Shown here piece by piece: positions 15,473-34,165 of a DNA stretch of 64,000 nucleotides. The first letter of the stretch is position 1. Each line of letters begins with the position of its first letter. The position numbers were made by a program, and so were the translations under genes. This DNA is from Lentisphaerae bacterium GWF2_49_21. Its GTDB lineage: Bacteria; Verrucomicrobiota; Lentisphaeria; Victivallales; GWF2-50-93. Under the pieces are notes generated by a model. That model did not search any database. It saw only the letters and a program-made list of their open reading frames with translations, and had not been told where the DNA came from. The stretch is taken from contig MHBH01000026.1 of NCBI GenBank assembly GCA_001804805.1, forward strand, positions 124,001 through 188,000, given 5' to 3'.

Positions 15473-17131
15473 TTAATTCTCCGGTGGTGACTTTTGGCTT
15501 TCCATCGATCTCGCAAGTTCAGGATAAAGCGACTTCATGCAGTCCGGACAGATGCCATGAGAGAATTTCGTGTCAGTATGCTTCATAAAATAGCTTTCAA
15601 GGATGGCCCAATATCCCTTGTCGTCGCGTATCTTCTTGCATTTGGCGCAGATTGGCAGAAGGCCGCTTAGTACTTTGACTTCTGAGAGGGCCTTCTGGAG
15701 ATCCTTTATAAGCCGTTCCCTTTCAGCCTCGGCCTCCTTGCGTTCCACATATTTCCATACTGAGTCCATTAGCAGGGAGAGCTGGCGGATGTCGGACTGG
15801 TCATAGTCAGTTTCCTTATTGGCCACTGCTGCTACTGCAACGATCTTATCCTCCACATAAACTGGGACTGTAAGATATTTGAATAGTTTTGCGTGTCCTT
15901 CCGGATATCCCTTTTTGAGAGGATGGGGAGAAAGGAAATCGTTCATGAGGATTGGTTTCCTCTGGCGGACGGCCTCGCCCCATATTCCAGTCTTTTCAAG
16001 CTGATAGACGGTCTGTGGATTGGTGATAGTGCATTCCTTCATCACGTCTTTTGACCAGGAGTTGAGGATGAATTCCTTTTTCTCCTCGTTGTAAAGGTAG
16101 ATATATCCAATTTTGCTTTTGGTGAGGGAGATAGCCTCTTCGAGCGCGAAATCGAGAAGATCCTGTATTCCTGTGGCCTTGTAATGTGAAATCTTCAGCA
16201 GGCTTTCAAGCCTGGCTTCGGAGAGCTTCTTCTGTTCAATCTCCTTCTTCAACCGTATGTTTGCAATCATCAATGTTCCCAGTATAAATACGATTATCAC
16301 AGGAATGACGGCGAGAAGTATCATCTTGATGTCCACTCCACTATAGAAAGTGGTCCATTTGTTCCTTATCGAAGTATGCTCTTCCGGGCTGATTGTAAGG
16401 ATTGCCTTGTTAAGTATGGGGATGAACTCAGACCAGTCCTTCCGGACGGCTATGCCCCATTTGACTACGAAGGGAGTGTCTGCAGCTATTTTCAGATTGG
16501 ACAGATAAAGATGGTTTATGGCGTAGACCGCTGTCGCAAGATCCCCGATATAGGCGTCGACTTCTCCAACGGCGACGGCTTTGAGCCCCTGTTCCGTGTC
16601 TGTCTTAGGCCTAAGGACTATTTTCGGATGATTTTTAGCGAGCCATTCATGTATGACATAATCCTTGTTGACGGAAACGGTTTTCCCTTCCAGATCATTG
16701 ATATTTTTAATGTCGGATCTGCTTTTTCCTGTTATGATGACATTAGGCATCTCGACGATGGTCTCTGAGAAGTTGAGGAAGTCTTCTCTTTCAGGAGTTC
16801 TGGCAACAATTGGAATTACGTCAATATCCTTTGATCTGGCTTTTTCCAGGATTTCGCTCCAGGTCGGAACGAGTTCGGGCTTGAATGAAACACCAAGCTT
16901 CTTTTCAAGTATGCGGACATAATCCGCCCCCAGGCCGGAATAATTGCCCTTATCATCTATCATGCCCCTGAAATAGCTGGATGAATCCACTCCGAGACGC
17001 ATGGTCGGATGCTTTTTCAGCCATTCCTTCTCGGATGGTGATAGGGACTTGTCCATTTCAGGGGACTGCGCCAGCAACAGGCAGGCAAATGAAAAAATCA
17101 GCAGAATGGACATGATCCTTATTCTTTGCAT
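15473..17131 (-). CDS. Periplasmic-binding-domain / GAF sensor protein without kinase domain
   Basis: 552 residues: signal/anchor segment, a bacterial extracellular solute-binding family 3 domain (about 25-260; WLKKHPTMRLGVD... EGKTVSVNKDYV...), a membrane helix near 270-292 (MILLAVIPVIIVFILGTLMIAN), a GAF domain (about 320-460), a short coiled coil, and a C-terminal 'LLPICAKCKKIRDDKGYW...HGICPDCMKSLYP' Cys-rich motif. That motif is often found at the end of PAS/GAF signalling proteins. There is no histidine kinase, GGDEF or EAL domain. It starts directly after the HD-GYP gene, so it is probably the last gene of the pga operon and senses a small ligand to modulate it. Confidence 0.8.
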   Translation of the reverse strand: MQRIRIMSILLIFSFACLLLAQSPEMDKSLSPSEKEWLKKHPTMRLGVDSSSYFRGMIDDKGNYSGLGADYVRILEKKLGVSFKPELVPTWSEILEKARSKDIDVIPIVARTPEREDFLNFSETIVEMPNVIITGKSRSDIKNINDLEGKTVSVNKDYVIHEWLAKNHPKIVLRPKTDTEQGLKAVAVGEVDAYIGDLATAVYAINHLYLSNLKIAADTPFVVKWGIAVRKDWSEFIPILNKAILTISPEEHTSIRNKWTTFYSGVDIKMILLAVIPVIIVFILGTLMIANIRLKKEIEQKKLSEARLESLLKISHYKATGIQDLLDFALEEAISLTKSKIGYIYLYNEEKKEFILNSWSKDVMKECTITNPQTVYQLEKTGIWGEAVRQRKPILMNDFLSPHPLKKGYPEGHAKLFKYLTVPVYVEDKIVAVAAVANKETDYDQSDIRQLSLLMDSVWKYVERKEAEAERERLIKDLQKALSEVKVLSGLLPICAKCKKIRDDKGYWAILESYFMKHTDTKFSHGICPDCMKSLYPELARSMESQKSPPEN

Positions 17132-17132
17132 A

Positions 17133-17738
17133 TCATCTTCCTCTTGTAATCCTGTCCAGTTTTTCTGAACATCTGTTGAAAGCTTCTACGACAGAAGGAT
17201 CGTATTTATGCCCTGAACATCTGTTGATCTCCTCTGCAACACGTGGAAAAGACTTCTTTTTGCTGTAGTTCCTGTCGGACCTCATTGCGTCAAATGAATC
17301 AGCCACGCAGCATATCCTCGCCCCGAGGCAGATCTTCCTGCCTTTGAGTCCGAGAGGATAACCAGTTCCATCCCAGAATTCATGATGTTGGAGGATTATT
17401 TTAGAAAGATCTTCCAGCTCCGTATAATATCGGGTGATTTTAAGGCTGAGGGCAGGGTGGTTTTTTATAATATCATATTCACTTTTAGTCAGAGGCTCAG
17501 GCTTGTCCAGTATTTTGGAAGGTATGAATATCTTGCCGATATCATGGTATAAAGTTCCGTTTCTGATTGTACGCAGCTCATCGGCATCACTTATACCCAT
17601 ATGTTTCGCAATGAGCACCGCCATGAGGCTGATGCGGCAGCTGTGGGAGTGGGTATACGGATCCAGCATCTTGAATACTTCATGGATGCTTTTCCCGGAC
17701 AAGTCCGGACACAGTTCATATCTTAAGATTTTTGTCAT
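17133..17738 (-). CDS. HD-GYP domain c-di-GMP phosphodiesterase
   Basis: About 201 residues from the ATG at 17738 (MTKILRYELCPD); an earlier ATG at 17798 would overlap pgaD by 83 bases. It is a stand-alone HD-GYP domain with YHDIGKI, IPSKILDKPEPLT, HHEFWDGTGYP (HHExxDGxGYP) and DSFDAMRSDRNY, so metal and substrate residues look intact. The family degrades c-di-GMP. Because PgaC/PgaD activity depends on c-di-GMP binding in characterised systems, a phosphodiesterase in the same operon would provide negative feedback. The start lies inside the 3' end of pgaD. Confidence 0.88.
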   Translation of the reverse strand: MTKILRYELCPDLSGKSIHEVFKMLDPYTHSHSCRISLMAVLIAKHMGISDADELRTIRNGTLYHDIGKIFIPSKILDKPEPLTKSEYDIIKNHPALSLKITRYYTELEDLSKIILQHHEFWDGTGYPLGLKGRKICLGARICCVADSFDAMRSDRNYSKKKSFPRVAEEINRCSGHKYDPSVVEAFNRCSEKLDRITRGR

Positions 17739-18243
17739 GATGCTTCGCCTGGTTGAGAGGCGCGTAGAGAGCCTTGAACTTTGTTTTTTTCCCGTCATCT
17801 ATTTCAATAATGTCGTCTTTAAGGAAATAAAAGTCAATGTTACTGGATTCCTGGAGAGCTAAAATATTCTCCTGATGCACCTTGTAGTACTCAGCCATCT
17901 TATCAGGTGTCGCTTCTCCCCTTGTGATACGTCGGTCTTTTCCTTTGAATCTCCAGGCATTGTAGCGGCTCCAGCCGAACATCAGGAGGTAAATAATGAT
18001 CAGGACGCCGGCGCCGATTCCGAAATATTCCGGATTGTCCATACCTTCTAGATCGATCAACTCATACTTGAAGAACCTGAGTGTCACATACCAGAGAATC
18101 ACGATAATAAGCGGACGGATCAAAATCATCCAGGCGACCCAACCGAGTATGTGAAGGCTCCATTCAGTGTAATACTTGGTCTTTGAAACCAAAGCGGGCC
18201 TGTCGATGATGAGAGGCTTGTCAAACTGTTTCTGGTCGTTCAT
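17716..18243 (-). CDS. pgaD: PgaD-like inner-membrane subunit of PNAG synthase
   Basis: About 175 residues from the ATG at 18243, which overlaps the pgaC stop (ATGA). It has an N-terminal 'KPLIIDRPALVSKTKYYTEWSL' segment typical of PgaD, two membrane helices (about 42-62 and 82-100) and a cytoplasmic C-terminal half. PgaD forms the c-di-GMP-responsive synthase with PgaC. At 175 aa it is longer than E. coli PgaD (about 137 aa), with an extended C-terminal tail that overlaps the HD-GYP gene. Confidence 0.85.
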   Translation of the reverse strand: MNDQKQFDKPLIIDRPALVSKTKYYTEWSLHILGWVAWMILIRPLIIVILWYVTLRFFKYELIDLEGMDNPEYFGIGAGVLIIIYLLMFGWSRYNAWRFKGKDRRITRGEATPDKMAEYYKVHQENILALQESSNIDFYFLKDDIIEIDDGKKTKFKALYAPLNQAKHHDKNLKI

Positions 18244-19475
18244 GACAACCCCCTGTCCGGGCTTTCCCATACAGCCAATGTATTCTTTTTCTTAAGAAGG
18301 GCCTTAGGAAAAGCGATGATCGTAGTTATGCAGGTTACGATCCAGTAGATTGCAGGATACCATATCATCCACGGAATTACTTTGAGGAGGGTTCTGTCGT
18401 ATCTCGCATCAAACATGATTCCCACTGTAAGCTGGAGCATGCAGACACCTGCCAGCATTACGCCGGTCCAACCGGGGGAAAGGACATTTCTGACAACGAG
18501 ATCCTGGGGTAGGGGCACATTGAGCAAGTGGAGGATCCAAAGGATGACCGTCAGGAGGAGCATATAGCACCACAGGACGCTTGCTGCATATTCCAGATAT
18601 ATGGGCCATATGCGGCGGTTTTTCCATGAAATCAGTTCCCGGAAATATTTTATGAGGACTTCTGCCCCTCCCTGGGACCAGCGGAGGCGCTGCTTGAAGA
18701 GACCATTCAATGTCTCTGGCACGAGGATCCAGCAGAGGGCGCGCGCCTCGTATCTTATGTCCCATTTGTCCATCTGCAGCTTCCAGCTTACATCGATGTC
18801 CTCGGTGACCATGTTGTTCGACCACCAGCCTACGTCAAGCAGGGCTTTTTTCCTGAATGCCGCGACAACTCCGGATACAGTATAAATTTTGCCAAGTATC
18901 CTCTGAGTCCTTTTAATCATTCCAATGATGGTGGAGTATTCTCCGACCTGGATCTTGGCGAGAAGTGTCGTTCTGTTCCTGACTTTCGGATTGCCTGTGA
19001 CAGCTCCAACCCTGGGGAAATTGACAAAATGCCAGAGCATCCATTTCACCGCATCCGGATCAAGCAGAGCGTCAGCGTCAATTCCGACAAGGAATTCCCC
19101 CCTGCTCGCCATTGCCGCCATAGTAAGGCCAGTTCCCTTTCCCTGGTTGCTCTTAAGGGTTATGACTCGCAGGCTGCTGAATTCCTTCTGAAGACTGCGG
19201 AGAATCTCTCCGGTCCTGTCATGGCTCGCATCATCGATTGCGATGATCTCAAAATTGCGGTAGGTCTGGAGTTGTAGGTATCTGATGGTGTCCTCGATAC
19301 ATTCCTCCTCATTGTGGCATGGGACAAGGACTGATACCATCGGATTTTCCTGAATTTCCGGCTCCTTAATGAGATATTTGTCCCTGTAGACACGGAAAAG
19401 TATGGATCCGAACATCCAGATGAAACCCATCAGAAGGGGGTAATAGAACACAAAATTGTATATGAAATCCATCAT
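18240..19475 (-). CDS. pgaC: Poly-beta-1,6-N-acetylglucosamine synthase (GT2)
   Basis: 411 residues: N-terminal membrane helix, a family 2 glycosyltransferase domain with VPCHNEEE, AIDDASHDRT, GIDADALLDPDAV, TEDIDVSWKL and the QRLRWSQGG (QxxRW) processive motif, then three C-terminal membrane helices. It polymerises UDP-GlcNAc into PNAG and extrudes it across the inner membrane. It lies between pgaB (12-base gap) and pgaD (4-base overlap), the standard order. Confidence 0.93.
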   Translation of the reverse strand: MMDFIYNFVFYYPLLMGFIWMFGSILFRVYRDKYLIKEPEIQENPMVSVLVPCHNEEECIEDTIRYLQLQTYRNFEIIAIDDASHDRTGEILRSLQKEFSSLRVITLKSNQGKGTGLTMAAMASRGEFLVGIDADALLDPDAVKWMLWHFVNFPRVGAVTGNPKVRNRTTLLAKIQVGEYSTIIGMIKRTQRILGKIYTVSGVVAAFRKKALLDVGWWSNNMVTEDIDVSWKLQMDKWDIRYEARALCWILVPETLNGLFKQRLRWSQGGAEVLIKYFRELISWKNRRIWPIYLEYAASVLWCYMLLLTVILWILHLLNVPLPQDLVVRNVLSPGWTGVMLAGVCMLQLTVGIMFDARYDRTLLKVIPWMIWYPAIYWIVTCITTIIAFPKALLKKKNTLAVWESPDRGLS

Positions 19476-19487
19476 CGGTCGTTTTTC

Positions 19488-21470
19488 CTATTTCTTGTCA
19501 AAAGGGAAATACTTTGACGATATCATGTCGGAAATGATCCTGGCGTCCGGCCTGTTTCCGATATAATCGTCCGGATAATAGGCTATATGATGGGCGCCGG
19601 CCGCCGCCAGTATCCTGAGCCATCCGTTTACGGTATCCGAATCAATCCATTTGTCCTTTTCCCAGTCGAACGCCTGCGTCTTGAATACGGTCCTGTTCAA
19701 GCCATCAGGATGCTCGGACGCCTTTTTCACAAGCGATTTCAGCCATCTTGTCTCCCAGAATATATCCTCCATTCTAGGGTATGCCATTATGACTGCGTAG
19801 TCGTAACGCTTGAGTGTCTGTGCGTAGTTCTGGCAGAACCATTCCTCGCTTTCGGGCTTCAAAAGAACTGGGGCATAGAGAGTTCTTGCAAATCGGATTT
19901 CAGGGCGGTAATAGAGGACCTTTTTCTTGATCCTGTCGGTTAGGGACATGATCTTTTCGGTCTTGAGATCCGTCCATTTGTTTTTCTGATCGCCGTTCAG
20001 CTTGTCGAACGGGATGCTCGCATCTCCGGAGATCTTGGCGTACTCCCTGAGGGCATCAGGACTGAAATCCTCGTAGTCGTTCATATATGCGTCGTCCTGG
20101 AAGATCACTCCGTCGAAATCGCAGTGCGCAGCGAGATCCTCGAATATCATCTCGATTTTCCTGCAGGCCTCCTCGTTGAACGGGGACAGGCGCTTGTACC
20201 AGGAGGTCGACGGCTGGATCTTCCCGTTGCGGAATTCGCAGACGCGCAGCCTCTCATTCTCATTTTCATCGGGGAGGACATAGGTCATGGCCGGCATCCA
20301 GGCATATACCATGATCCCCCTTATGAAGATCGAACGCGCTATCCTGCTGAAGATGTCGGCCTTGACCGGAAGGACCCTGTTGTTGAAATACACCGACGAC
20401 ACATTTCCATCGCCCTTGTCGTCGCAGAAGGCCTGAAGGTAGACCGCGGATGGTTTCAGGCTGAAGATCCTCTCTATGAAAGCATCGATGTTCTTCGAAA
20501 GTTTTTCCGGATCCGGATCATATACTGAATCGATGTCGGCATGGACAATGCGCAGCCTTTCCGTGTTGATGAACTTCCTCTGGAACATCTCCGCGAAGTT
20601 TTCTATGGACGGATTGTTCATTATCATGAAGCGCGGGATGGCTTCAGTCCTGTCCGGAGTGGCGAAGCCGTCGTCGAGGGTGAACATGAACTTGAAGCCC
20701 GCCTTCTGCGCCTCCTCAATTCCTGCATGATTGTATCTTCCATAGGGCCAGACCAGTATCTCCGGAGCAATTCCCGTCTTTTCCCTGATCAGGGAGGAAG
20801 ATTTGCCGAGATCCCCGGAGATTCTTTTCAGATATTCATCTTTTGTCTCATATCTCTTCAGATCAGGAAAGTAGGTCCTGGTCTGGATTGCCGGAGCTAT
20901 GCTTCCGAGAGGATTCATAAGGACTCCCCTGTGCTGTGCATGGCTGTGGCTTGCAATTTTCACAAGCCCGGAGCTGGCGACTTCCCGCAGCTGCTCCCAG
21001 CTCATGAACGTCTTATTGTATTCAGGTTCGTCGGGAGGAGTATCTATCCAGCTTGATACCACGGCGAGGACCGCAGGACACTTGTACAGTTTCAGCAGGG
21101 GGAATACATGCCTGTAGAAGCTTTCATAGGCGTCGTCAAATGAAATGAGAACCGCTTTTTCCGGAAGTTTCTTTTCCCCTGTTTTCGCCTTCAGGATGTC
21201 GTCCGTGCCGATGAAGCTGCATCCCTGAGACTTCAAAAATTCGAGCTGCCTGACAAAGGATTCGAGTTCGACCGCATATCCGTCCTTGTCATCGGCTATC
21301 TTGACGGGAATGTCATGGTAGCAGAGTACCAGGAAGGAATTTGCGGGGAAGCCTTTGGTGAAATCTACGGGCTTGCTGGATTTGAAATCACCTCCTGAAA
21401 ACATGGAAAGGTTCTGTGCCGCCGAGGAGAGGCAGATTATGAAAACTGTGAACAATGCAATTATTTTCAA
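19488..21470 (-). CDS. pgaB: PNAG N-deacetylase / glycoside hydrolase
   Basis: 660 residues with an N-terminal signal sequence (MKIIALFTVFIICLSSAAQN) but no clear lipobox. The deacetylase domain has LVLCYHDIP, ISFDDAYESFY, ASHSHAQHRG and VLVWPYGRYN. The C-terminal GH153-like domain (about 330-650) carries DGVIFQDDAYMND, matching the catalytic Asp pair of PgaB. It partially deacetylates PNAG in the periplasm for export. Contains a near-copy of the 13-bp palindrome at 20228. Confidence 0.93.
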   Translation of the reverse strand: MKIIALFTVFIICLSSAAQNLSMFSGGDFKSSKPVDFTKGFPANSFLVLCYHDIPVKIADDKDGYAVELESFVRQLEFLKSQGCSFIGTDDILKAKTGEKKLPEKAVLISFDDAYESFYRHVFPLLKLYKCPAVLAVVSSWIDTPPDEPEYNKTFMSWEQLREVASSGLVKIASHSHAQHRGVLMNPLGSIAPAIQTRTYFPDLKRYETKDEYLKRISGDLGKSSSLIREKTGIAPEILVWPYGRYNHAGIEEAQKAGFKFMFTLDDGFATPDRTEAIPRFMIMNNPSIENFAEMFQRKFINTERLRIVHADIDSVYDPDPEKLSKNIDAFIERIFSLKPSAVYLQAFCDDKGDGNVSSVYFNNRVLPVKADIFSRIARSIFIRGIMVYAWMPAMTYVLPDENENERLRVCEFRNGKIQPSTSWYKRLSPFNEEACRKIEMIFEDLAAHCDFDGVIFQDDAYMNDYEDFSPDALREYAKISGDASIPFDKLNGDQKNKWTDLKTEKIMSLTDRIKKKVLYYRPEIRFARTLYAPVLLKPESEEWFCQNYAQTLKRYDYAVIMAYPRMEDIFWETRWLKSLVKKASEHPDGLNRTVFKTQAFDWEKDKWIDSDTVNGWLRILAAAGAHHIAYYPDDYIGNRPDARIISDMISSKYFPFDKK

Positions 21471-21486: not shown

Positions 21487-24400
21487 TTAGAACTTCCAGG
21501 TTAAAGTTGAATACAGACCCCAGGAGAAGGGACTGTCGCTGCCATAGCGTTCCTTGCCGGCCTTGCCCCCGACTATAAAACCAAAATAATCCGTCAGATG
21601 ATACTCCTGCTCATATCGGAGGTAATATTGGCTTTTGCAGTTGAAGCCCTTTTCCCAGTGTGGGCCGATTCCGATGAACATCCTGTCGGTTATGGAAGTC
21701 TCATATCGCCTGTACCAGAGATGTTCCACCATGGGCACAAGATAAATGGAAGTATAATATTTCGGGGCGTAATATTCGCTGTCCCGGTATTTTGTGTTTG
21801 TCGTAGTGGATCCCTCAAGCGCGACTCTGAATTTCCAGTATGCCGATGAGTACAATCCCTTGTCTATTTTCCAGCTGTATGTCTGGTTGAGATTGCCGTC
21901 GGAGACCCAGACATTGGAGAATCCGGCGTTGACGATCAAGTCCTCGCTGAAGCGGTACTCCGCGGAAATATTAGCCTCCTGCCCCTTTTTGCCGAACAGA
22001 AGCGCCTTCGGGGGCATGTTCAAGGTATATGAATTGTAAAAGCCCGTCAGGGTGAGATGATCGGTCGGCTTATACCTCAGCCCCGCCATGAAGCCGGGAT
22101 TTTCCGCGTGATAATCCATGGAGGCTTCGCCGAATATGGACAGATCACGGTCGAGTCGCCAGTCGAATCCGATCGCTCCGCGGAAGATGTTTCTCCTTTT
22201 CCCCTCCTGATTTGAATCCTTGGGCTGCGACGTTAAGAGCCATAACATCTCGGTGTATATCTTCCTGTCCGGATATATCGGCTGGTCGAGGCGTATGGTT
22301 ATGCCGGAACCGTCCACGAAGCTTCCTTCATTGCTGTAGTTGCTGTCGATCGTGAGGGTTCTCTTCTCCTGGAGCTCCAGGGATCTCTGCAGCTTCTTTA
22401 CTGCCAGGTCTGCCGGATAGGTTTTTGCGAGTTCCGCAGCAAGGGATCTGGCCTGTTCCCATTCGTCGTTTTCATTCAAGGTGTATGCCATTCCGATCTG
22501 GGCCGCCTTGTCCTTGGGATCAAGTGTTGCAGATATCTGGAATTCCTCCAGTGCGAGCCTGAACCAGCCACGGTAGTAATGAACATAGGCCAGGGCAGTC
22601 CTGATGTTCGTATTGTAAGGGGCCCTGTAATGGAGATCCGTCAGGTATTCATCCGCATATGAGAGCTGATCATTGTAAATGTACCACCAGCCTCGTTCAA
22701 CGGCAACATCCATCTTGTCGGGATTCTCGATGTAGACGCCGTCCGGACGCGCGAATGCCGGGGTTTCCTTTTCCAGGAACTCAAGTATTTCGTCTGCAGC
22801 CCTCTGGTCCTCGAGTTCGATCAGGCACGCATAGATGCCCTGGAGCGTAAGATAGTTGTCGGGATAACTGTCCTTGCCAGACTTTTTCAGTTCCTCATGG
22901 AGTTCCCTGTACATGGCAAGCGCTGTGTCGGGCTGGCGGCAGTAAAGGTATGCTGAAGCAACGTTCTGCCTCAGCCATGAAGGAGTATCGATGCCTTCCT
23001 TCCTGAGGTTTTCATATTCCTTGATCAGATCCTGCATCTTCTCGGCCTGGAAAAGAGCCAGTATCCTGTCGAAGCGCGCACGTATCTTGAGTTGCTCGGC
23101 GTCTTCCGCGGCTTCAGGTATGCCCTTGTATTTTTCATAAGTCAGGATATTCCCATCGATAATATCGATTGCCTTCCTGTAATCCTTCCAGGAGAGCTGT
23201 TCCGCCGCAAGATCCCCCATGATCCTTTTTTTCACCGCATATGACACGTCGTCTCCCGAGTCCTTCAGCATCTGATCCGCGAGTATTGCAGCCTTGATGT
23301 CAAGGAGGATGTGGTATTTGGCATTTACTGAAGGACGGTAGAACTTGTTTATTGAAAGAATCTTCTGGTTGAGATCATATGCCTCGATGTATTTCCTGGA
23401 AAGCTGCAGCAGTGTCACCTTCAGGAAGAGCAGATCCGGATTGGAAGGGTCAGCGGCTATCAACTCGTCGGAGATCTTCATAGCTTCCTGGATCCCTGTT
23501 TTCTCCTGTATCAGTGTTTCAACCAGCATTCTCTTGGCGTCAGCATCATCAGGATTGTTTTTCAGATAGGTCTTCAAAAAGTTTCCAGCCTCGTCGTATC
23601 TGCCTTCGACAATATAAGCTTCACAGGGCAGCATCTCCAGCCATTTCGGCGGTTTCTGGTATTTCTTCATTTCGTCCCGGATGAAAGATTGGGCCTCGGC
23701 GGCATGTCCGGCACCGACCATCGAGAAAGCTTTTCCTTTGACAGCTGAAGGATTGTCTCCGTTCAATGCCAGGGACTTTTCATAGCAGTCGATGGCTTCT
23801 GCGTATCTGCCGGTCCTCCTGTAGGCGGTTCCTGCCGCATCAAACACGTTTGCCTTCGGAGAATAGCTGTCCTTGTAATTGGAATAAACGGCAATGGCAT
23901 CCTTATATTTCTCCGCCCAGACCAGAACCATGATCTTGTCGGCCAGGATCACAGGTTTCTCGTAATTGAGTTCGATCAGCCTGTCGAAGATAACTAAAGC
24001 CTCGTCATATTTTCCATTCCTTGCGTCATGCACTGCCTTCGAATGTATTTGCGAGAGAGACTTGTTAAGCAATTCCCTATCCTTGCCGGCAGACGAAATC
24101 TTCCTGCTGATCTCGTCTATGGCCTCGTTGAGCTTTCCATCCCTTATGAGCCTGTCTGTTTCTGGTTCAACCGCCATCTCCGGTTTTTCTGTTTTCTGAA
24201 CAGATGTCTCCTCAGTTGCCGCTCTTTCAGGTTTTATGGCAGAAGGCTTGTTTTCAACCGGCATGGAGGCGATTTCCTTCGCGAGATATGCTGGAGCTTT
24301 TCTCTCTTTGTAATATTCATCGTAGAGATTTCGTGCCTCATCCTTCCTGCCAGCCCAGGAAAGCACAAGGATGTAGTCGGACATCATGGCTACATCATTT

Positions 24401-25062
24401 TCATTGTTCTTCAGAAGCCCCTTTAAAATATCAAGGGATTCCTGATGCCTGCCGGCCTTGGCGGCCTCCACTGCCTTTCCGTGTTGCGCCCTGGCATACA
24501 GTTTCCGCATCCATTCAGGGATCTCCTTCAGTCCTTTGCTGCGGGCATCAAGATATTTCAGGGCCTTTTCTGAATTGCCTGAGTTTGCACAGGCTTCAAC
24601 CATGAGCCTGACAAGAGATTCGTCCTTCTCGTTTTTTTGAAGATATTTTTCGAAGAGAGATGCTGATTCCGAATACTTTCCAAGCTTGCAGTAGACGACA
24701 GCCATTTCAACCTGGACAGGCTCAGGTATCTTGAAGTCCTTTGGAATTCCATCATATGCTTTTAGGGCTTCATCATATCTGCCGGCCCACTTGAATATCA
24801 CAACTGCGTCGCAAAGGACATCGGGTGCATTTTTGGTTTCAGCCAGGACTTTTTTGATTCCTGCTGCCGCTTCGTCATATTTGCCGTTTCTGGCATTGAC
24901 CACGGCCTGTCTGCGCTGGGAATCGGTATTGCGTGCAAACAGGTCGTCGAGGATGTCGGCACTCGTAGAGAATGCCAGCATAGAAAACAGAAATAAAAAG
25001 AATGGTTTAATATTGAATCCCGTATCTTTAGAACCCATATTGAAAAAAGCAAAATAAAACAT
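21487..25062 (-). CDS. pgaA: PNAG outer-membrane export porin with TPR superhelix
   Basis: 1191 residues, longer than E. coli PgaA (about 807). After an N-terminal signal region (FFLFLFSMLAFSTSA) come many TPR units over residues ~35-850 and a C-terminal 16-strand-type beta-barrel domain (about 890-1191) ending in Trp-Lys-Phe. The TPR part binds deacetylated PNAG and PgaB, and the barrel exports the polymer. Neither the ATG at 25062 nor the one at 25038 has a good SD, so the exact start is uncertain. It is the first gene of the operon and diverges from the diguanylate cyclase gene across a 51-base gap. Confidence 0.9.
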   Translation of the reverse strand: MFYFAFFNMGSKDTGFNIKPFFLFLFSMLAFSTSADILDDLFARNTDSQRRQAVVNARNGKYDEAAAGIKKVLAETKNAPDVLCDAVVIFKWAGRYDEALKAYDGIPKDFKIPEPVQVEMAVVYCKLGKYSESASLFEKYLQKNEKDESLVRLMVEACANSGNSEKALKYLDARSKGLKEIPEWMRKLYARAQHGKAVEAAKAGRHQESLDILKGLLKNNENDVAMMSDYILVLSWAGRKDEARNLYDEYYKERKAPAYLAKEIASMPVENKPSAIKPERAATEETSVQKTEKPEMAVEPETDRLIRDGKLNEAIDEISRKISSAGKDRELLNKSLSQIHSKAVHDARNGKYDEALVIFDRLIELNYEKPVILADKIMVLVWAEKYKDAIAVYSNYKDSYSPKANVFDAAGTAYRRTGRYAEAIDCYEKSLALNGDNPSAVKGKAFSMVGAGHAAEAQSFIRDEMKKYQKPPKWLEMLPCEAYIVEGRYDEAGNFLKTYLKNNPDDADAKRMLVETLIQEKTGIQEAMKISDELIAADPSNPDLLFLKVTLLQLSRKYIEAYDLNQKILSINKFYRPSVNAKYHILLDIKAAILADQMLKDSGDDVSYAVKKRIMGDLAAEQLSWKDYRKAIDIIDGNILTYEKYKGIPEAAEDAEQLKIRARFDRILALFQAEKMQDLIKEYENLRKEGIDTPSWLRQNVASAYLYCRQPDTALAMYRELHEELKKSGKDSYPDNYLTLQGIYACLIELEDQRAADEILEFLEKETPAFARPDGVYIENPDKMDVAVERGWWYIYNDQLSYADEYLTDLHYRAPYNTNIRTALAYVHYYRGWFRLALEEFQISATLDPKDKAAQIGMAYTLNENDEWEQARSLAAELAKTYPADLAVKKLQRSLELQEKRTLTIDSNYSNEGSFVDGSGITIRLDQPIYPDRKIYTEMLWLLTSQPKDSNQEGKRRNIFRGAIGFDWRLDRDLSIFGEASMDYHAENPGFMAGLRYKPTDHLTLTGFYNSYTLNMPPKALLFGKKGQEANISAEYRFSEDLIVNAGFSNVWVSDGNLNQTYSWKIDKGLYSSAYWKFRVALEGSTTTNTKYRDSEYYAPKYYTSIYLVPMVEHLWYRRYETSITDRMFIGIGPHWEKGFNCKSQYYLRYEQEYHLTDYFGFIVGGKAGKERYGSDSPFSWGLYSTLTWKF

Positions 25063-25113
25063 AGCTTAAAGACAACCAGTAATATATGGTTATAAAAGGG
25101 TTAAATCAATTTT

Positions 25114-26151
25114 ATGGATGATAATAACAGGCTGCTTGTCGAGATATTGAAGAACTGCCTGAAGCTGGATTCTCAGGCATATCTTCTATATAACAAGATA
25201 GGCGGTTGCTGTTCGGACGAAAATCAGAGGATCTTCTGGAACAGGCTTGCTGAGGACGAAAAGGATCATGTTGAATTCTGGAGCAAGGCACAGAAGCTCG
25301 CAGAAAAGGAACTGCTGCCAAATGTATTTGAAGATCCGGCCGCAACCTTGCAGAAATTCGAAAAGCTCCTGCAGAAAGTGCTGTATCTGATCAAGGGAAT
25401 AAAGGACTATTCCAATATGTCCGAAACCCTTGCGATAGCCTACCGCCTGGAGTTCCATATGCTCAGCCCCGAATTTGCCACCATGTTCCATATCTTCAGG
25501 AACCTTGAAGGGATTGACAATATTGAGGACGAATATGACAGGCATATAGAGGGATTCATCGCCAGTCTTATGAAATTTGGAGACAAGGTGCCTGAAGCTG
25601 AGATGCTCGGAGAGACTCTCCAGACGCTATGGACGGACTACAAGCGTCTTGCAAAGGAAAGCGCCTGCGATCTTCTTACAGGCCTTCTTAACAGGAGGGG
25701 ATTCTTCAATGCAGTCAATCCGGTGGTACATCTTGCATCCAGGAAGAAGTTCAAGGTGGTGTTCCTTATTGCGGACGTAGACCATTTTAAGAATATAAAT
25801 GATACGCATGGGCATCATCGGGGAGATGAAGTCCTGAAGTTCATTGCTTCAATAATTGAATCAAGCCTCAGGGAATCAGATATTGTCGGAAGGCATGGGG
25901 GTGAGGAGTTCATCGTTTATGCCGACTGCAAGGATCCGGACTCGATAAATCTCCTATGTGAGAAAATAAGGAAAAACGTTGAAGAGAAAACGGAAGCCGC
26001 CCTTGGTTTCAAGGTTACTGTCAGCATCGGCGCCAGTTCCGGTTTCATCGGCAACTCCGTAGAGCAGGAGATGATGGCGCTCATCCACAGGGCCGACCAG
26101 AACCTCTACAAGGCCAAGGCAGATGGCAGGAACAAGATTGTCTGCTTATAA
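25114..26151 (+). CDS. Diguanylate cyclase with N-terminal ferritin-like domain
   Basis: 345 residues. The N-terminal ~150 residues form a helical ferritin/rubrerythrin-like domain with candidate di-iron ligands (EDEKDHVEFW, LEFHML, EDEYDRHIEG). The GGDEF domain follows (about 175-345): DLLTGLLNRRGFF, ADVDHFKNINDTHGHHRGDEVL and the active site RHGGEEF. A product-inhibition I-site RESD lies five residues before GGEEF. It makes c-di-GMP. The divergent pgaA promoter is 51 bases away, so it probably feeds PNAG production, perhaps in response to oxygen or iron. Confidence 0.9.
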   Translation: MDDNNRLLVEILKNCLKLDSQAYLLYNKIGGCCSDENQRIFWNRLAEDEKDHVEFWSKAQKLAEKELLPNVFEDPAATLQKFEKLLQKVLYLIKGIKDYSNMSETLAIAYRLEFHMLSPEFATMFHIFRNLEGIDNIEDEYDRHIEGFIASLMKFGDKVPEAEMLGETLQTLWTDYKRLAKESACDLLTGLLNRRGFFNAVNPVVHLASRKKFKVVFLIADVDHFKNINDTHGHHRGDEVLKFIASIIESSLRESDIVGRHGGEEFIVYADCKDPDSINLLCEKIRKNVEEKTEAALGFKVTVSIGASSGFIGNSVEQEMMALIHRADQNLYKAKADGRNKIVCL

Positions 26152-26181
26152 ATAATTCCTCTGTCAATCGGAATTATTTAT
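26148..26181. terminator. Bidirectional hairpin between convergent genes
   Basis: ATAAATAATTCC (26148-26159) pairs with GGAATTATTTAT (26170-26181). It contains the stop codons of both the diguanylate cyclase gene and the convergent small membrane-protein gene. Confidence 0.6.
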
Positions 26182-26467
26182 CCTTCATCAGGAAGATCTC
26201 CGCATAGCTGATGATCCAGATCAGAATAAGGAAAACAGGGGATAGGATGAGATTCCTGTAGTTGAAAAGCCTCAGGTCCATTTCCTCGCCATCCAGCATT
26301 ATCTGCATGTTCCTGTATAATGGGTATGCGACCTCCCAGGTGAACCACAGGATGCAGAATATTCCTCCGGTAATCATCATCAGGCCCAGAAGCCATTTTT
26401 TAGCGAGAAGCTGCCCGACGCCAGGCGCTATAAGGTTTGCAGCAAGATATGCAGTCTTATTGTTCAA
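26174..26467 (-). CDS. Small membrane protein, unknown function (97 aa)
   Basis: 97 residues with an N-terminal 'KTAYLAANLIAPGVGQLLAKKWLLG' segment. This Gly-Gln-hydrophobic pattern resembles TM2-like small membrane proteins. Two hydrophobic helices are clear (about 28-48 and 74-92). GGAAGG lies upstream of the ATG. It is the last gene of the minus-strand block that begins at coaD, separated from fabH by a hairpin. Confidence 0.65.
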   Translation of the reverse strand: MNNKTAYLAANLIAPGVGQLLAKKWLLGLMMITGGIFCILWFTWEVAYPLYRNMQIMLDGEEMDLRLFNYRNLILSPVFLILIWIISYAEIFLMKDK

Positions 26468-30935: not shown

Positions 30936-31226
30936 TTAGACTATCAGCGAACCCTCAAGATCTACCGTAGGCTTTGCCCCGATATGTTCAACTTTCCCAT
31001 ACCAGTTATTTCCCAAAAAATAAAATCTCAGACTGTCTTGATCTTCATCAATTTCATCAAGCAATCTCTTTTTCAATACCGTGAATTGAGCCTGATCCAC
31101 AAGGCATTCAAAAACAGAATTCTGCACCCTCTGTCCGTAATCAAGGCAGACCTTGGCAACTCTTCTAAGCCGTTTCTGTCCATCTTTAGACGAGGTTTTC
31201 ATATCATAACTGACAAGAACAAGCAT
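30936..31226 (-). CDS. cas2: CRISPR-associated endonuclease Cas2
   Basis: 96 residues: [41 protein letters not shown], the ferredoxin-fold Cas2 pattern with the catalytic-site Asp8 and the QxSVFE strand. It forms the spacer-integration complex with Cas1. Its GGAG ribosome-binding site lies in the apex of a 10-bp hairpin that also contains the cas1 stop codon. Confidence 0.97.
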
Positions 31227-31227
31227 G

Positions 31228-31250
31228 ATAAATTTACTCCGTAAATTTAT
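31228..31250 (-). promoter_or_regulatory. Hairpin presenting the cas2 ribosome-binding site
   Basis: On the minus strand ATAAATTTAC and GTAAATTTAT pair perfectly around GGA. The cas1 TAA lies in the first arm, GGAG at the apex, and the cas2 ATG one base after the second arm. Confidence 0.5.
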
Positions 31251-32272
31251 TTCCAGATGAAAGGCGGATAGGAATCGAGATCTCCTCGGATGAATCTGGC
31301 GAAAAGCATGGCCTGAACGTATGGGATCAATCCGACATTAATCTTTTCATCAATGAATGGATGAGTAAGCTCATCTTTTTTCCTCTCCTGATAGGCCATG
31401 AGCACTTCCTTACGGGTGGCGTCGTCCATGACTACGGCTCCGCCTTCCATCTTCCTGAAACCTGTCCCGTTTACTCTCTGCAGGTTGATCAATGACAGCA
31501 CAAGCCTGTCAGCGAAAAATGGCCTCAGTTCCTCCATGAGATCAAGGGCTAATCCTGCCCGGCCCGGCCTGTCCCTGTGCAGAAAACCTACTGCCGGATC
31601 AAGACCGACAGTCTCAAGCGCGGACTGCACGTCATGGGCAAGCAAAGTATAGATGAAAGAAAGAAGGGCATTAGTATTGTCCATCGGAGGGCGCTTGTTC
31701 CTCCCCTCGAACTTGAAATCCTCCTTCTGGGAAGTGATCAGCCTGTCAAAGACGGAAAAATACGATCTTGCCAAATCCCCTTCAACTCCACGAATTTCAT
31801 CAAGTTCCTGGATTGTTCTCAGCCTTTCAAGTTGCTGGTCAATCCTCCTTGAAACCGCCTCAATGTCTCCGGAACTGTCGCCGTGATCCCTCAAGAACCT
31901 GTTCAGTACAGTCCTGCAGTTGCACAATTTTCCCGCCAGCACATGCCTTGCGATGTTCGCAGATTGCAGGACATCGTCCGAAAACCTGTATTGGGCTTTT
32001 CGCAGTAGGACGTTTCCTGACACTGGCCCTTGCACTTTGGCAAAAAACTTCCCATGCTCGCTCAGGAAAGAGACTAGCACATTCTTCTCGGTACAGAATC
32101 CCATGAGCTGAGGGCTCATTGATATCTGTCCAAAACAGACTATTCCCCCGATGGTATGGATTGGCAACCGCAGCTTCACTTCCCTTTCCACGCTGACAAT
32201 GACGCATTCGCCCTCTTTCGAGAGATAAGCACCCTGTGTTGTGACAAACAATGTGTTTAGCAGCTTTTTCAT
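31247..32272 (-). CDS. cas1: CRISPR-associated integrase Cas1 (type I-C)
   Basis: 341 residues with the metal-binding Glu in [11 protein letters not shown], His in [10 protein letters not shown] and Asp/Glu in [13 protein letters not shown], all intact. The N-terminal domain ([16 protein letters not shown]) is the I-C type. Its ATG overlaps the cas4 stop (TTATGA). No own SD is visible because a REP palindrome occupies the preceding bases, so translation probably depends on coupling to cas4. Contains a near-copy of the genome's 13-bp palindrome at 31949, which suggests long residence in this genome. Confidence 0.97.
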
Positions 32273-32916
32273 AAAAGGAGGACAGGCTTTCCAGCCTGTT
32301 CATCTATATATTTCCCCACATTCTTTCTCATCGCCTTTGGCATGCACAGTTCCTGCAACGAGCAATTGTCGCACTTCTCCTTTTCATAGACCGGAGAAGG
32401 GGTCTTTCTTTCGTCAATTAATTTATGGAGGCGTTCTATTGTTCCAATCGTCAAATTCCTCAGTTCCTCATCAAAGTGTACAACATGCCTATGCCGAGTC
32501 TTTCCATAGAAAAGAGAGCCCTCCGGGATTGGCACGCCCATCATCTCCTCAAGGCAGAGAGCCTGTGCGCATAGCTGAACTTCATCGCACCTGTTTGCTT
32601 TCGGTTTTCCGCGTTTGTACTCTACCGGATATGGAATCCATTTGCCTTCCGTATTCCTGTGAAATTCAACGATGTCTGCTTTAGCCGACAAACCAAGGTT
32701 CGTGGATTTCATTAGGAGGCCATGTTCTATCTTTGTATCCGGTCCGGAGTTTCTAAGTTTCTGTTCGTCGGCCTTTTCGTGCATGAACTCGCCTTCGAGG
32801 GTGAACCTGTTCTCCTGCCAGATCTGCTCGATATGTATCAGCGCGCACTGCCTTTCGCAGAAAAGGAAGTGCTGTAGGGCTGAAAGCTGGATAAAGCTGT
32901 CTTCCTTATCTTCCAC
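32269..32916 (-). CDS. cas4: CRISPR-associated exonuclease Cas4
   Basis: About 215 residues from the GTG at 32916 (VEDKEDSFIQLSALQHF), which overlaps the upstream orf100 stop by 11 bases. The longer frame to 33024 would overlap orf100 heavily. Landmarks: first iron-sulfur Cys in FLFCERQC, GEFMHEKAD, AKADIVEF, VEYKRGK (RecB-type nuclease) and the C-terminal CDNCSLQELC cluster. The last ten residues ([10 protein letters not shown]) are encoded by a REP palindrome (32280-32299). It trims prespacers for Cas1-Cas2. Confidence 0.93.
   Translation of the reverse strand: MEDKEDSFIQLSALQHFLFCERQCALIHIEQIWQENRFTLEGEFMHEKADEQKLRNSGPDTKIEHGLLMKSTNLGLSAKADIVEFHRNTEGKWIPYPVEYKRGKPKANRCDEVQLCAQALCLEEMMGVPIPEGSLFYGKTRHRHVVHFDEELRNLTIGTIERLHKLIDERKTPSPVYEKEKCDNCSLQELCMPKAMRKNVGKYIDEQAGKPVLLL
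32280..32299. repeat. REP palindrome inside the cas4 3' end
   Basis: GACAGGCTTTCCAGCCTGTT is the same core as the speA downstream repeat. It supplies the last codons of cas4 and removes any SD in front of cas1. Confidence 0.65.
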
Positions 32917-33208
32917 GGCTCTTCTTCCCTCTTTTGGTCTTGATGTACTGATCAATCCATTTGTTTGCCAGGCTGATGACTTTCCCATTTGGCATCCATC
33001 CGGCTTCATATTGTTCTTTGCCATAATCGCAGGAAGTATTCCAGAGGAGTTTGTCTTTCGCCCAATATGACTGGGATCTTGCTATTTCAAGGCTGATCGT
33101 ATTGTATCTCGCCCTGAAGTAGTAATATTCTCCAGTCGGCAAGGTGCCCTTGGCCTGTACGGGACAATTTCCAAATGGATTGACGCCATATTTGTTTTTG
33201 ATTTTCAT
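32906..33208 (-). CDS. Unknown 100-aa protein embedded in the cas operon (orf100)
   Basis: 100 residues with a hydrophilic, aromatic-rich N-terminal half (YGVNPFGNCPVQAKGTL, EYYYFRARYNTISLEIA, YEAGWMPNGK) and a very basic tail (KTKRGKKSRGR). The 'PVQAxG...YYFRARxxxxSLEIA...AGWMP' arrangement recalls small proteins seen in phage and mobile DNA, but I cannot name a family. Its ATG overlaps the BRO/DinD-like stop (ATGA) and its end overlaps cas4 by 11 bases, so it is translated as part of the operon. A DNA-binding or accessory role is possible. Confidence 0.75.
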   Translation of the reverse strand: MKIKNKYGVNPFGNCPVQAKGTLPTGEYYYFRARYNTISLEIARSQSYWAKDKLLWNTSCDYGKEQYEAGWMPNGKVISLANKWIDQYIKTKRGKKSRGR

Positions 33209-34026
33209 CGAATTTCTTTATTGGATTCCGGTTTATCCAAGTAATTTTTCTTCGACACAATCGATCTGCCAAGCTTTTTCTCCAGTTCCTTTCGGGCATT
33301 TCCGGCTATCCTGCCTCCTGCATGGGCGTCGTCCTTGAGCTTTTTCAGCCCCTTGGAATCCTCTGTGCGGTGGATCTCAGTCGTTGACCTCTCCCCGAGC
33401 ATTGTGAATATAAGCTCGAAGTCGTCCATGTGGTCACGGAGATTCTCCCGTTTCAATCCCTTGAGCTTCTTGTATTCGCTTGGCGTTACACCGAACGAAG
33501 CCTTTGAGATCTCAGCCGTCAAGATTTCATAATCCCTGTCCTTTTCAGCACCTCTGTTGTCCCATTCGTCGGTCAGTTCCTGACGGATGGTTATCCCGCG
33601 CATCCTTTTCTCTATCCAGTCGTCTGAATACCCTTTGAGCTTGTAGATCATCCGTGTGCGCTTAGCCGCAAGTTCCGGGTTTTCAATCTCCTGCACCCTC
33701 TCATAACCGACCTTCGCCAGCCAGCGCTTGAAGGGTTCGGCCTTGGGGGAGGGGATGGATTGGATGATTCGGAATATGCCCTCAGTGTTAGCGCAGTTCA
33801 TCTTCTGGACTCCGCCTTCTGTAGGAACTGGAAGGGGGTGGACAATTTGTCCATACCCTTTTTCGAGCTCCGGATCACGTTTCCTTAACTTGTTTAAATA
33901 GTCGGTTGGATTGACAGAATCCGTCAGTGCCTGAACGACATCCACGATGACGAACCACCATTCATCATTGTGTAGAGTCTTTCTGATTTGCTTTCCCTTG
34001 AACAATGCAATTTTCGTATTTTCCAT
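33205..34026 (-). CDS. BRO-N / DinD-like protein in the cas operon
   Basis: About 273 residues from the ATG at 34026 (MENTKIALFKGKQIRKTLH), with an AAAGGAG SD. The N-terminal BRO domain (about 5-110) has WWFVIVDVVQALTDS, DYLNKLRKRDPEL and NCANTEGIFRIIQSIPSPKAEPFKRWLA. The C-terminal half (TIRQELTDEWDNRG, SEYKKLKGLKRENLRDHM, AHAGGRIAGNARKELEKKLGR) matches DinD/phage-antirepressor-like proteins. E. coli DinD is SOS-induced and limits RecA strand exchange. Its placement between cas7 and cas4, with start/stop overlaps on to orf100, cas4 and cas1, is unusual for type I-C. Confidence 0.85.
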   Translation of the reverse strand: MENTKIALFKGKQIRKTLHNDEWWFVIVDVVQALTDSVNPTDYLNKLRKRDPELEKGYGQIVHPLPVPTEGGVQKMNCANTEGIFRIIQSIPSPKAEPFKRWLAKVGYERVQEIENPELAAKRTRMIYKLKGYSDDWIEKRMRGITIRQELTDEWDNRGAEKDRDYEILTAEISKASFGVTPSEYKKLKGLKRENLRDHMDDFELIFTMLGERSTTEIHRTEDSKGLKKLKDDAHAGGRIAGNARKELEKKLGRSIVSKKNYLDKPESNKEIR

Positions 34027-34036
34027 TCTGCTCCTT

Positions 34037-34165
34037 TCAAACCATCTCAATCATTTCCACGCCCTTCGGCAGATTCGCCTTGTCTATCTTGACCTCGTAG
34101 TCTGAAAACTCCCGCGCCGGTGTGGTAGGGGCGGATTTGCGCCCAATCTTGACACAAACTGTAAA
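34037..34165 (-). pseudogene. 3' remnant of an older cas7 (csd2) gene
   Basis: Directly after the cas7 TGA and in the same frame, 42 sense codons run to a TGA at 34037. The last ~30 read PAREFSDYEVKIDKANLPKG followed by VEMIEMV, which matches the usual C-terminal ending of type I-C Csd2 proteins ('RSFxDYEVxVDxxxLPEGVxLIE'). The resident cas7 already has a complete, different C-terminus (YSSAKVH...LKPEEIAGF). A GTAG-footed REP (34125-34144) sits at the junction. This is best explained as the tail of a replaced cas7. Confidence 0.7.
34125..34144. repeat. GTAG-footed REP at the cas7 remnant junction
   Basis: GTAGGGGCGGATTTGCGCCC: a GTAG foot and a GGGCG/CGCCC-type hairpin, placed between the resident cas7 stop and the old cas7 tail. 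Confidence 0.6.

Follow-up and report, generated by a model that had tools for sequence, protein, structure and literature searches.

The window, as we call the whole stretch of 64,000 nucleotides from Lentisphaerae bacterium GWF2_49_21 analysed here, contains a gene (25114–26151, +) that encodes a ferritin-like domain (FLD) joined to a GGDEF domain and lies divergent from a pgaABCD operon for PNAG synthesis. We propose, with a probability of about 0.55, that this FLD-GGDEF protein is a metal- or redox-state-controlled diguanylate cyclase dedicated to the neighbouring polysaccharide synthase, a reading in which we infer the metal binding, the signal and its direction, the enzymatic activity and the action on PgaCD. 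The protein would probably turn on slime production locally, under the control of metal or redox state.

A ferritin-like domain ahead of an intact GGDEF domain

The open reading frame has an ATG start, encodes 345 amino acids and agrees exactly in its coordinates with the one singled out by the original prediction; no GGDEF protein other than its product was detected in the draft genome. The GGDEF domain (residues 184–341; 25663–26136, +) matches Pfam at E=1.5e-38. By motif reading, the RxxD inhibitory site, RESD (residues 253–256), ends five residues ahead of the GGEEF active site (residues 262–266), the two being contained in RESDIVGRHGGEEF (residues 253–266; 25870–25911, +), and both motifs are conserved in an alignment of FLD-GGDEF relatives. 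The active site and I-site had been described as intact, and this is what we find. GGEEF has the GG(D/E)EF form of an active diguanylate cyclase and, on these motifs, we regard the protein as a putative enzyme of that kind.

Residues 1–181, assigned by profile, AlphaFold and structure matches to FLD and its C-terminal linker helix (25114–25656, +), have no Pfam match above cut-off. Rubrerythrin (PF02915) scored 15.0 bits over residues 10–110, below its cut-off of 22.8, and the domain is therefore not placed in that family. Neither a hemerythrin nor a CZB family was among the three Pfam matches up to E 1, so that the protein groups with neither the hemerythrin-DGCs nor the CZB-DGCs; the hemerythrin-DGC ligand set consists of five His, one Glu and one Asp, whereas the only invariant histidines here are H52 and H144. 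None of the 20 best NCBIfam stretches extends into the N-terminal domain before residue 168.

A profile of FLD made from seven relatives matched solved ferritin-like proteins (1vjx, 1.5e-5; 5n5e, 2.8e-5; 2fzf, 6.1e-5) and matched the solved structure 3EZU at 5e-27. AlphaFold, given the window protein and six related sequences, returned a model with a mean pLDDT of 89.9 for the whole protein and 90.6 for FLD alone. Searched with the FLD model, Foldseek placed 3EZU at the top (4.2e-5, TM 0.67) as the sole match under 0.001, and VIA-align gave the same structure a Z of 14.0. Rows 2–50 among the VIA-align matches listed had Z from 11.3 to 9.9 and were mostly ferritins, bacterioferritins, Dps, YciF and rubrerythrin; because the program cautions that values below about 13 count for little with helical bundles, the fold assignment leans mainly on the ligand pattern and the sequence profile. 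The VIA-align and profile matches point to a four-helix bundle of the ferritin-like superfamily, and the profile matches to 1vjx, 5n5e and 2fzf, together with the structure comparison, bear out the earlier claim that a ferritin-like domain stands ahead of GGDEF. The whole-protein model superposed on 3EZU with a TM of only 0.51, so that this structure does not corroborate how the model arranges the two domains.

A candidate metal site with two histidines and a tyrosine

A canonical di-iron carboxylate site is made up of E, ExxH, E and ExxH, which supply four carboxylates and two histidines. In the AlphaFold model of FLD, the ligand candidates are predicted to be spread over four helices: D19 in helix 1 (codon 25168–25170, +), E49-x-x-H52 in helix 2 (25258–25269, +), E113 in helix 3 (codon 25450–25452, +) and Y141-x-x-H144 in helix 4 (25534–25545, +), with Y141 at the position of the canonical Glu. 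We aligned the window protein with nine full-length relatives that are 35–67% identical to it. The FLD residues invariant in these 10 sequences are Y26, W42, E49, H52, W56, E113, L117, H144, F148, L172 and L179; among the 62 D/E/H/K/R/C residues of the domain, only E49, H52, E113 and H144 are invariant. Position 19 is D in eight sequences and E in two. Position 141 is Tyr in nine and Phe in one, the canonical ExxH Glu being absent from all 10.

Ligand counts were also taken over FLD rows from 12 cyclase-type genes or gene pieces and one from genome G229, leaving out L030, which did not align. D/E19, E49, H52 and E113 are kept in all 13 rows, H144 is kept in all 12 that cover its position, a count to which the additional piece L041 contributes, and 11 of 12 have Tyr141. 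Identity to the window's FLD is 28–62% (seven sequences). Free-standing ferritin-like proteins of 159–179 amino acids (L028, L029, L031 and L032), which are distant relatives of FLD, keep E49 and H52.

The ligand motifs proposed originally, DEKDHVEFW, LEFHML and EDEYDRH, hold all four invariant D/E/H/K/R/C residues, for which the chance is 0.0018 given that 14 of the 62 such residues fall in the three motifs; the helix-1 candidate D19 had been missed. As a ligand motif EDEYDRH stands only in part: H144 is invariant, but the rest is not, and Tyr141 occupies the place where the ExxH Glu is expected. With this Glu of helix 4 replaced by Tyr or Phe, FLD does not carry a canonical di-iron carboxylate site. 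As read from the alignment, the candidate site would comprise two His, three carboxylates and one tyrosine, and these conserved candidates, combined with the predicted fold, suggest that FLD binds metal.

The pga operon divergent from the cyclase gene

Between the listed starts of the FLD-GGDEF gene and pgaA lies a divergent intergenic region of 51 bp (25063–25113), in which promoter- and terminator-like patterns do not rise above those of shuffled sequences (1 and 0 sites in a scan of 24950–26300, compared with 2.6 and 1.0 in shuffles). No Rfam family reached its gathering score between 15000 and 29000. The other neighbour of the cyclase gene is a 97-amino-acid open reading frame without a significant Pfam match.

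The minus strand carries, in order, pgaA (21487–25062; TPR and PgaA barrel by Pfam, barrel 4e-24), pgaB (19488–21470; GHL13 8.1e-105, polysaccharide deacetylase 5e-19), pgaC (18240–19475; a GT2 synthase with QRLRW and TED motifs) and pgaD (17716–18243; PgaD 2.2e-21). All four PNAG synthase genes are therefore present in one operon, as predicted from the domain matches to PgaA, PgaB, PgaC and PgaD. They are followed by a gene for a stand-alone HD-GYP phosphodiesterase (17133–17738, −; HD_5 2.7e-32) and, as the last gene of the apparent operon, by one for an SBP_bac_3 and GAF protein (15473–17131, −; Pfam). The reading frame of pgaD is open to 18270 and that of the HD-GYP gene to 17798; a pgaD start at 18243 gives a 4-nt overlap with pgaC, and an HD-GYP start at 17738 gives a 23-nt overlap with pgaD. 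The same two overlaps occur in the related locus L010, which suggests coupled translation, and L010 also has a relative of the SBP-GAF protein after HD-GYP (65.6% over 343 amino acids, cut by the end of the stretch).

The HD-GYP protein (201–221 amino acids, depending on the start) has intact HDIGK and HHEFWDGTGYP motifs, as expected of a phosphodiesterase of this type. According to the relevant part of PMC8461298, c-di-GMP in E. coli binds PgaC and PgaD, stabilises their complex and activates synthesis. At the level of sequence, then, the locus does combine a maker (the cyclase), a breaker (HD-GYP) and an effector (PgaCD) of c-di-GMP, as had been proposed.

Two further features of the window can be recorded here. 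The SBP-GAF protein ends in about 60 residues (LLPICAKCKKIRDDKGYW...CPDCMKSLYPEL) outside any Pfam match, and this tail recurs after a ferritin-like domain in G229 (L027 1468–2232; 45.9% over 61 amino acids). Elsewhere, at 30936–34050 (−), are genes for Cas2, Cas1 and Cas4, preceded on the minus strand by a 100-amino-acid open reading frame without a Pfam match and by a gene for a Bro-N protein (5.2e-14).

Distribution of the gene and c-di-GMP inventory

The distribution of FLD-GGDEF is patchy. Within the class, 6 of the 148 genomes sampled have the N-terminal domain, and across the phylum sample the FLD profile found a match in 22 of 387. FLD is joined to GGDEF in 10 of the 22; the remainder were set aside, since in G229 FLD is followed by a different tail and the weak matches in 11 genomes come from reading frames that look like free-standing ferritin-like or rubrerythrin-like proteins. 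Within the order, 10 of 137 genomes match at 1e-8, which adds G451, whose gene is cut by a contig end, so that no GGDEF part is visible. FLD-GGDEF was not found in a genome of the same genus, G415, which is 77% complete. Six of the loci come from Lentisphaerae GWF2_50_93, GWF2_44_16, a MAG labelled Victivallis vadensis, a Lentisphaerales MAG and two Victivallaceae MAGs.

The window genome (G000), a 5.9-Mb draft that is 95% complete, has one GGDEF match, and a domain scan of this draft returned no EAL and no PilZ. It has two HD_5 matches, the second HD-GYP protein lying outside the locus, and three MshEN matches, which are further possible c-di-GMP targets, so that PgaCD is not the sole candidate. 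A single GGDEF match was also seen in three other carriers of FLD-GGDEF (G133, G394 and G408), making four of 10; each of the remaining carriers has between two and four, one match being below cut-off. Three genomes of the same family without FLD-GGDEF have none. Absence is provisional, the carriers being drafts, 72–95% complete. Cytochrome bd subunit I, the only oxidase type searched, was found in one carrier (G122) and not detected in the other nine, including the window genome, which tells little about oxygen use.

Polysaccharide synthesis genes beside the cyclase gene in relatives

We compared the surroundings of the gene in 11 genomes, namely the 10 with FLD-GGDEF and G451, which has the FLD part only. 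At three of the 11 loci there are pga genes: these are divergent in G000 and G122, and lie on the same strand in G394, in the order pgaC-pgaD-FLD-GGDEF-receiver/HD-GYP. At four others (G117, G133, G144 and G451) the locus has an HlyD-like gene and a GT2-PilZ synthase gene. HlyD_3 passes its cut-off in L013 and L014 but not in L012; the PilZ part is weak, with 23.6 bits in L012 (cut-off 22.5) and 22.2 and 16.5 bits, both below cut-off, in L013 and L014, and the G451 protein was called by its 67% identity to that of L012. In G144, two FLD-GGDEF genes (L014 3840–4952 and 8360–9007, −) flank one HlyD-like and GT2 operon; the contig ends within the second of them, the rest of which may be on L015 (3–422, −).

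The remaining loci are more varied. On a 6.6-kb contig of G267 (L043) the gene is accompanied by NfrA_C-TPR, DUF4434 and UDP-GlcNAc 2-epimerase genes, and no NfrB gene was seen on this contig. G108 (L011) has divergent GH114 and TPR genes, the contig ending inside the TPR gene. These resemble pelA and pelB, and a Pel locus was considered and rejected when PelG was not found in G108; we think it likely to be a polysaccharide locus of no assigned type. PelG was found in two of 10 genomes (G144 and G391), on contigs other than that of FLD-GGDEF. No polysaccharide synthesis gene was seen at two of the 11 loci: G408, where there is HD-GYP only and then the contig end, and G391, where 10.9 kb was available on one side and the contig ends about 0.5 kb away on the other.

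As a control, we used 12 other GGDEF loci from G108, G117, G122, G229, G267 and G391. A GT2 gene was in the stretch at seven of 11 FLD loci, compared with one of 12 control loci (Fisher p=0.009), a value that is indicative only, since most of the sequences behind the profiles came from FLD loci, which are thereby favoured, the stretches differ in length, with the window stretch taken whole, and the genomes are related. A thirteenth control locus, L108, was left out because its match is below cut-off and the scan of the loci gave no GGDEF hit in it; it holds a GT2 match, which would make the control two of 13. A separate HD-GYP gene, called with a profile also built mostly from FLD loci, occurs at six of 11 FLD loci and none of the 12 others, three of which have HD-GYP in the same reading frame as GGDEF. 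This gene adjoins the cyclase gene in G117, G133, G394 and G408; in G000 and G122 it stands at the end of the pga operon that is distant from the cyclase gene.

PgaD was above cut-off in six of the 387 genomes and FLD-GGDEF present in 10, with both in three (p=2.4e-4, kinship ignored), two of these three belonging to one genus. The PgaD genomes without FLD-GGDEF are G085, G328 and G329. In G085, which is of the same family as the window genome and in which no GGDEF was detected, PgaD and HD-GYP are fused (L096 201–1433, −; PgaD 2.9e-21, HD_5 8.7e-25, HD-GYP motifs intact), and this natural fusion supports the view that HD-GYP acts on the PgaCD pool. The original prediction had tied the cyclase to PNAG. 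The link between cyclase and synthase does recur in relatives, but it is not specific to PNAG: because FLD-GGDEF is also found beside other likely polysaccharide synthases, the link appears to be with exopolysaccharide synthesis generally, of which PNAG is one case.

A proposed mechanism and its alternatives

We envisage that the FLD four-helix bundle, in the cytoplasm, would hold a metal, most likely iron, through D19, E49, H52, E113 and H144, with Tyr141 in the position that the fourth carboxylate takes in a canonical site. Helix 162–184 would relay the state of the bundle, metal or redox, to the GGDEF domain and so set the rate of c-di-GMP synthesis, the I-site giving product feedback. The c-di-GMP made would activate the PgaCD synthase encoded next door and would be removed by the HD-GYP enzyme of the pga operon; in relatives, the same FLD-GGDEF module would serve other polysaccharide synthases. 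By analogy with V. cholerae Bhr-DGC, we weakly favour the reduced form as active and the oxidised form as inactive.

FLD might instead report the availability of iron, manganese or zinc by its metal occupancy, and not O2 or redox state. DgcZ, a cytosolic zinc-binding diguanylate cyclase with a CZB domain that regulates poly-GlcNAc in E. coli, provides a precedent (described in part of PMC8262984). We reason also that an incomplete ligand set could lower affinity and make occupancy variable, and cytochrome bd subunit I was not detected in nine of 10 carriers, so that O2 need not be a routine signal. Carboxylate-rich, two-His ligand sets in a ferritin fold are, however, those of redox-active iron sites rather than zinc sites, and the flanking reading frames, pgaA and the 97-amino-acid one, are not metal uptake or storage genes; on balance we consider an occupancy sensor unlikely. 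That FLD is a structural or small-molecule-binding input domain, its metal ligands being relics, seems to us decidedly improbable. Relics would drift, whereas here it is the charged residues among the ligands that stay invariant in a domain otherwise only 28–62% identical; the idea draws on 3EZU, which keeps the architecture without E49, E113 and H144 and features in a figure that deals with unidentified bound ligands (in the portion of PMC2954221 concerned).

An ordinary diguanylate cyclase feeding a whole-cell pool would make adjacency to pga incidental, with other targets such as MshEN ATPases mattering equally. The three MshEN matches fit such a pool, as does the detection of only one GGDEF, since every c-di-GMP target would then depend on FLD-GGDEF. 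Set against these is the recurrent adjacency to varied polysaccharide synthesis genes, in several families and in different gene orders, and we think a purely global role rather unlikely. The dedicated, metal- or redox-controlled cyclase remains our preferred reading. A bolder form of it, which we put forward tentatively and rate somewhat below even, is that FLD-GGDEF proteins are a distinct class of sensor cyclase, responding to O2, peroxide or iron through a ferritin-fold site of two His, three carboxylates and a tyrosine. Together with HD-GYP, they would form an exchangeable cassette beside different synthases (PNAG, GT2-PilZ/HlyD and probably Nfr-type) and would be the only cyclase of the cell in some bacteria. 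In such a class Tyr141 could possibly act as a tyrosinate ligand or redox partner.

Comparison with known systems

The architecture itself is not new, being already known in structure from 3EZU. This protein of Geobacter sulfurreducens (NP_951600.1; structural genomics) has the same two domains and matches residues 7–343 of the window protein (phmmer 1.2e-60), which thus belongs, over its full length, to the 3EZU type. The N-terminal domains are alike at the Z of 14.0 given above, but T, Q and Y replace E49, E113 and H144 in 3EZU, which thus lacks three of the five ligand candidates and shows that the architecture can exist without the full site. We take 3EZU to be the product of locus tag GSU0542. 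A search of the open-licence literature found no functional study of it; 3EZU is named in an alignment legend (in the part concerned of PMC4215984). A form whose site looks complete seems not to have been described in the open-licence literature searched, where, among the matches listed and in the text that these offered, no study of a ferritin-like cyclase was found. One paper (PMC10599522) was considered as a link between ferritin and GGDEF and discarded, the ferritin-like protein and the GGDEF text being unrelated entries in the portion concerned.

Of the characterized systems, DgcZ (YdeH) with PgaCD in E. coli likewise combines an N-terminal metal-binding domain with a GGDEF domain to control poly-GlcNAc (from the relevant parts of PMC8262984 and PMC8461298). 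It differs in that its domain is a CZB zinc domain, not a ferritin-like one. In E. coli, dgcZ is also not known to lie beside pga. V. cholerae Bhr-DGC, a hemerythrin-GGDEF protein, shares a non-heme-iron domain ahead of GGDEF, iron being only predicted in our case; it is redox-controlled, its reduced form being ten times more active, and its ligands are the hemerythrin five His, one Glu and one Asp (as given in the sections concerned of PMC9388753). Its fold is that of hemerythrin, whereas the window FLD is ferritin-like with two invariant His. Another diguanylate cyclase, P. gingivalis PG_0686, is reportedly a hemerythrin protein.

DgcJ-NfrB exemplifies one diguanylate cyclase dedicated to one exopolysaccharide synthase in local c-di-GMP signalling, and a gene for a WecB-like epimerase is part of some nfr loci, joined in most pseudomonads by one for a diguanylate cyclase (according to part of PMC8669469). 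L043, with NfrA_C-TPR, epimerase and FLD-GGDEF, is comparable to such loci; it differs in being without NfrB on its contig, and a ferritin-like sensor is not mentioned in the part of PMC8669469 that describes DgcJ-NfrB. Redox and O2 control of c-di-GMP has been reviewed for heme (PAS and globin), hemerythrin, flavin and disulfide sensors (in the corresponding parts of PMC8846402), and the word ferritin is absent from the main text of that review.

A ferritin-fold sensor, if true, would add a type to the known O2 and redox sensors of c-di-GMP signalling, and the uncharacterised structure 3EZU would gain a family with a testable function. One detected cyclase beside a PNAG synthase would also offer a simple natural system in which to compare local and global c-di-GMP signalling. 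As judged by analogy, the window locus would resemble known systems in placing a metal-controlled diguanylate cyclase at the service of an exopolysaccharide synthase; it is unlike them in the fold of the sensor, in a ligand set that is unusual, in having only one detected cyclase and in that the module is used again beside different synthases.
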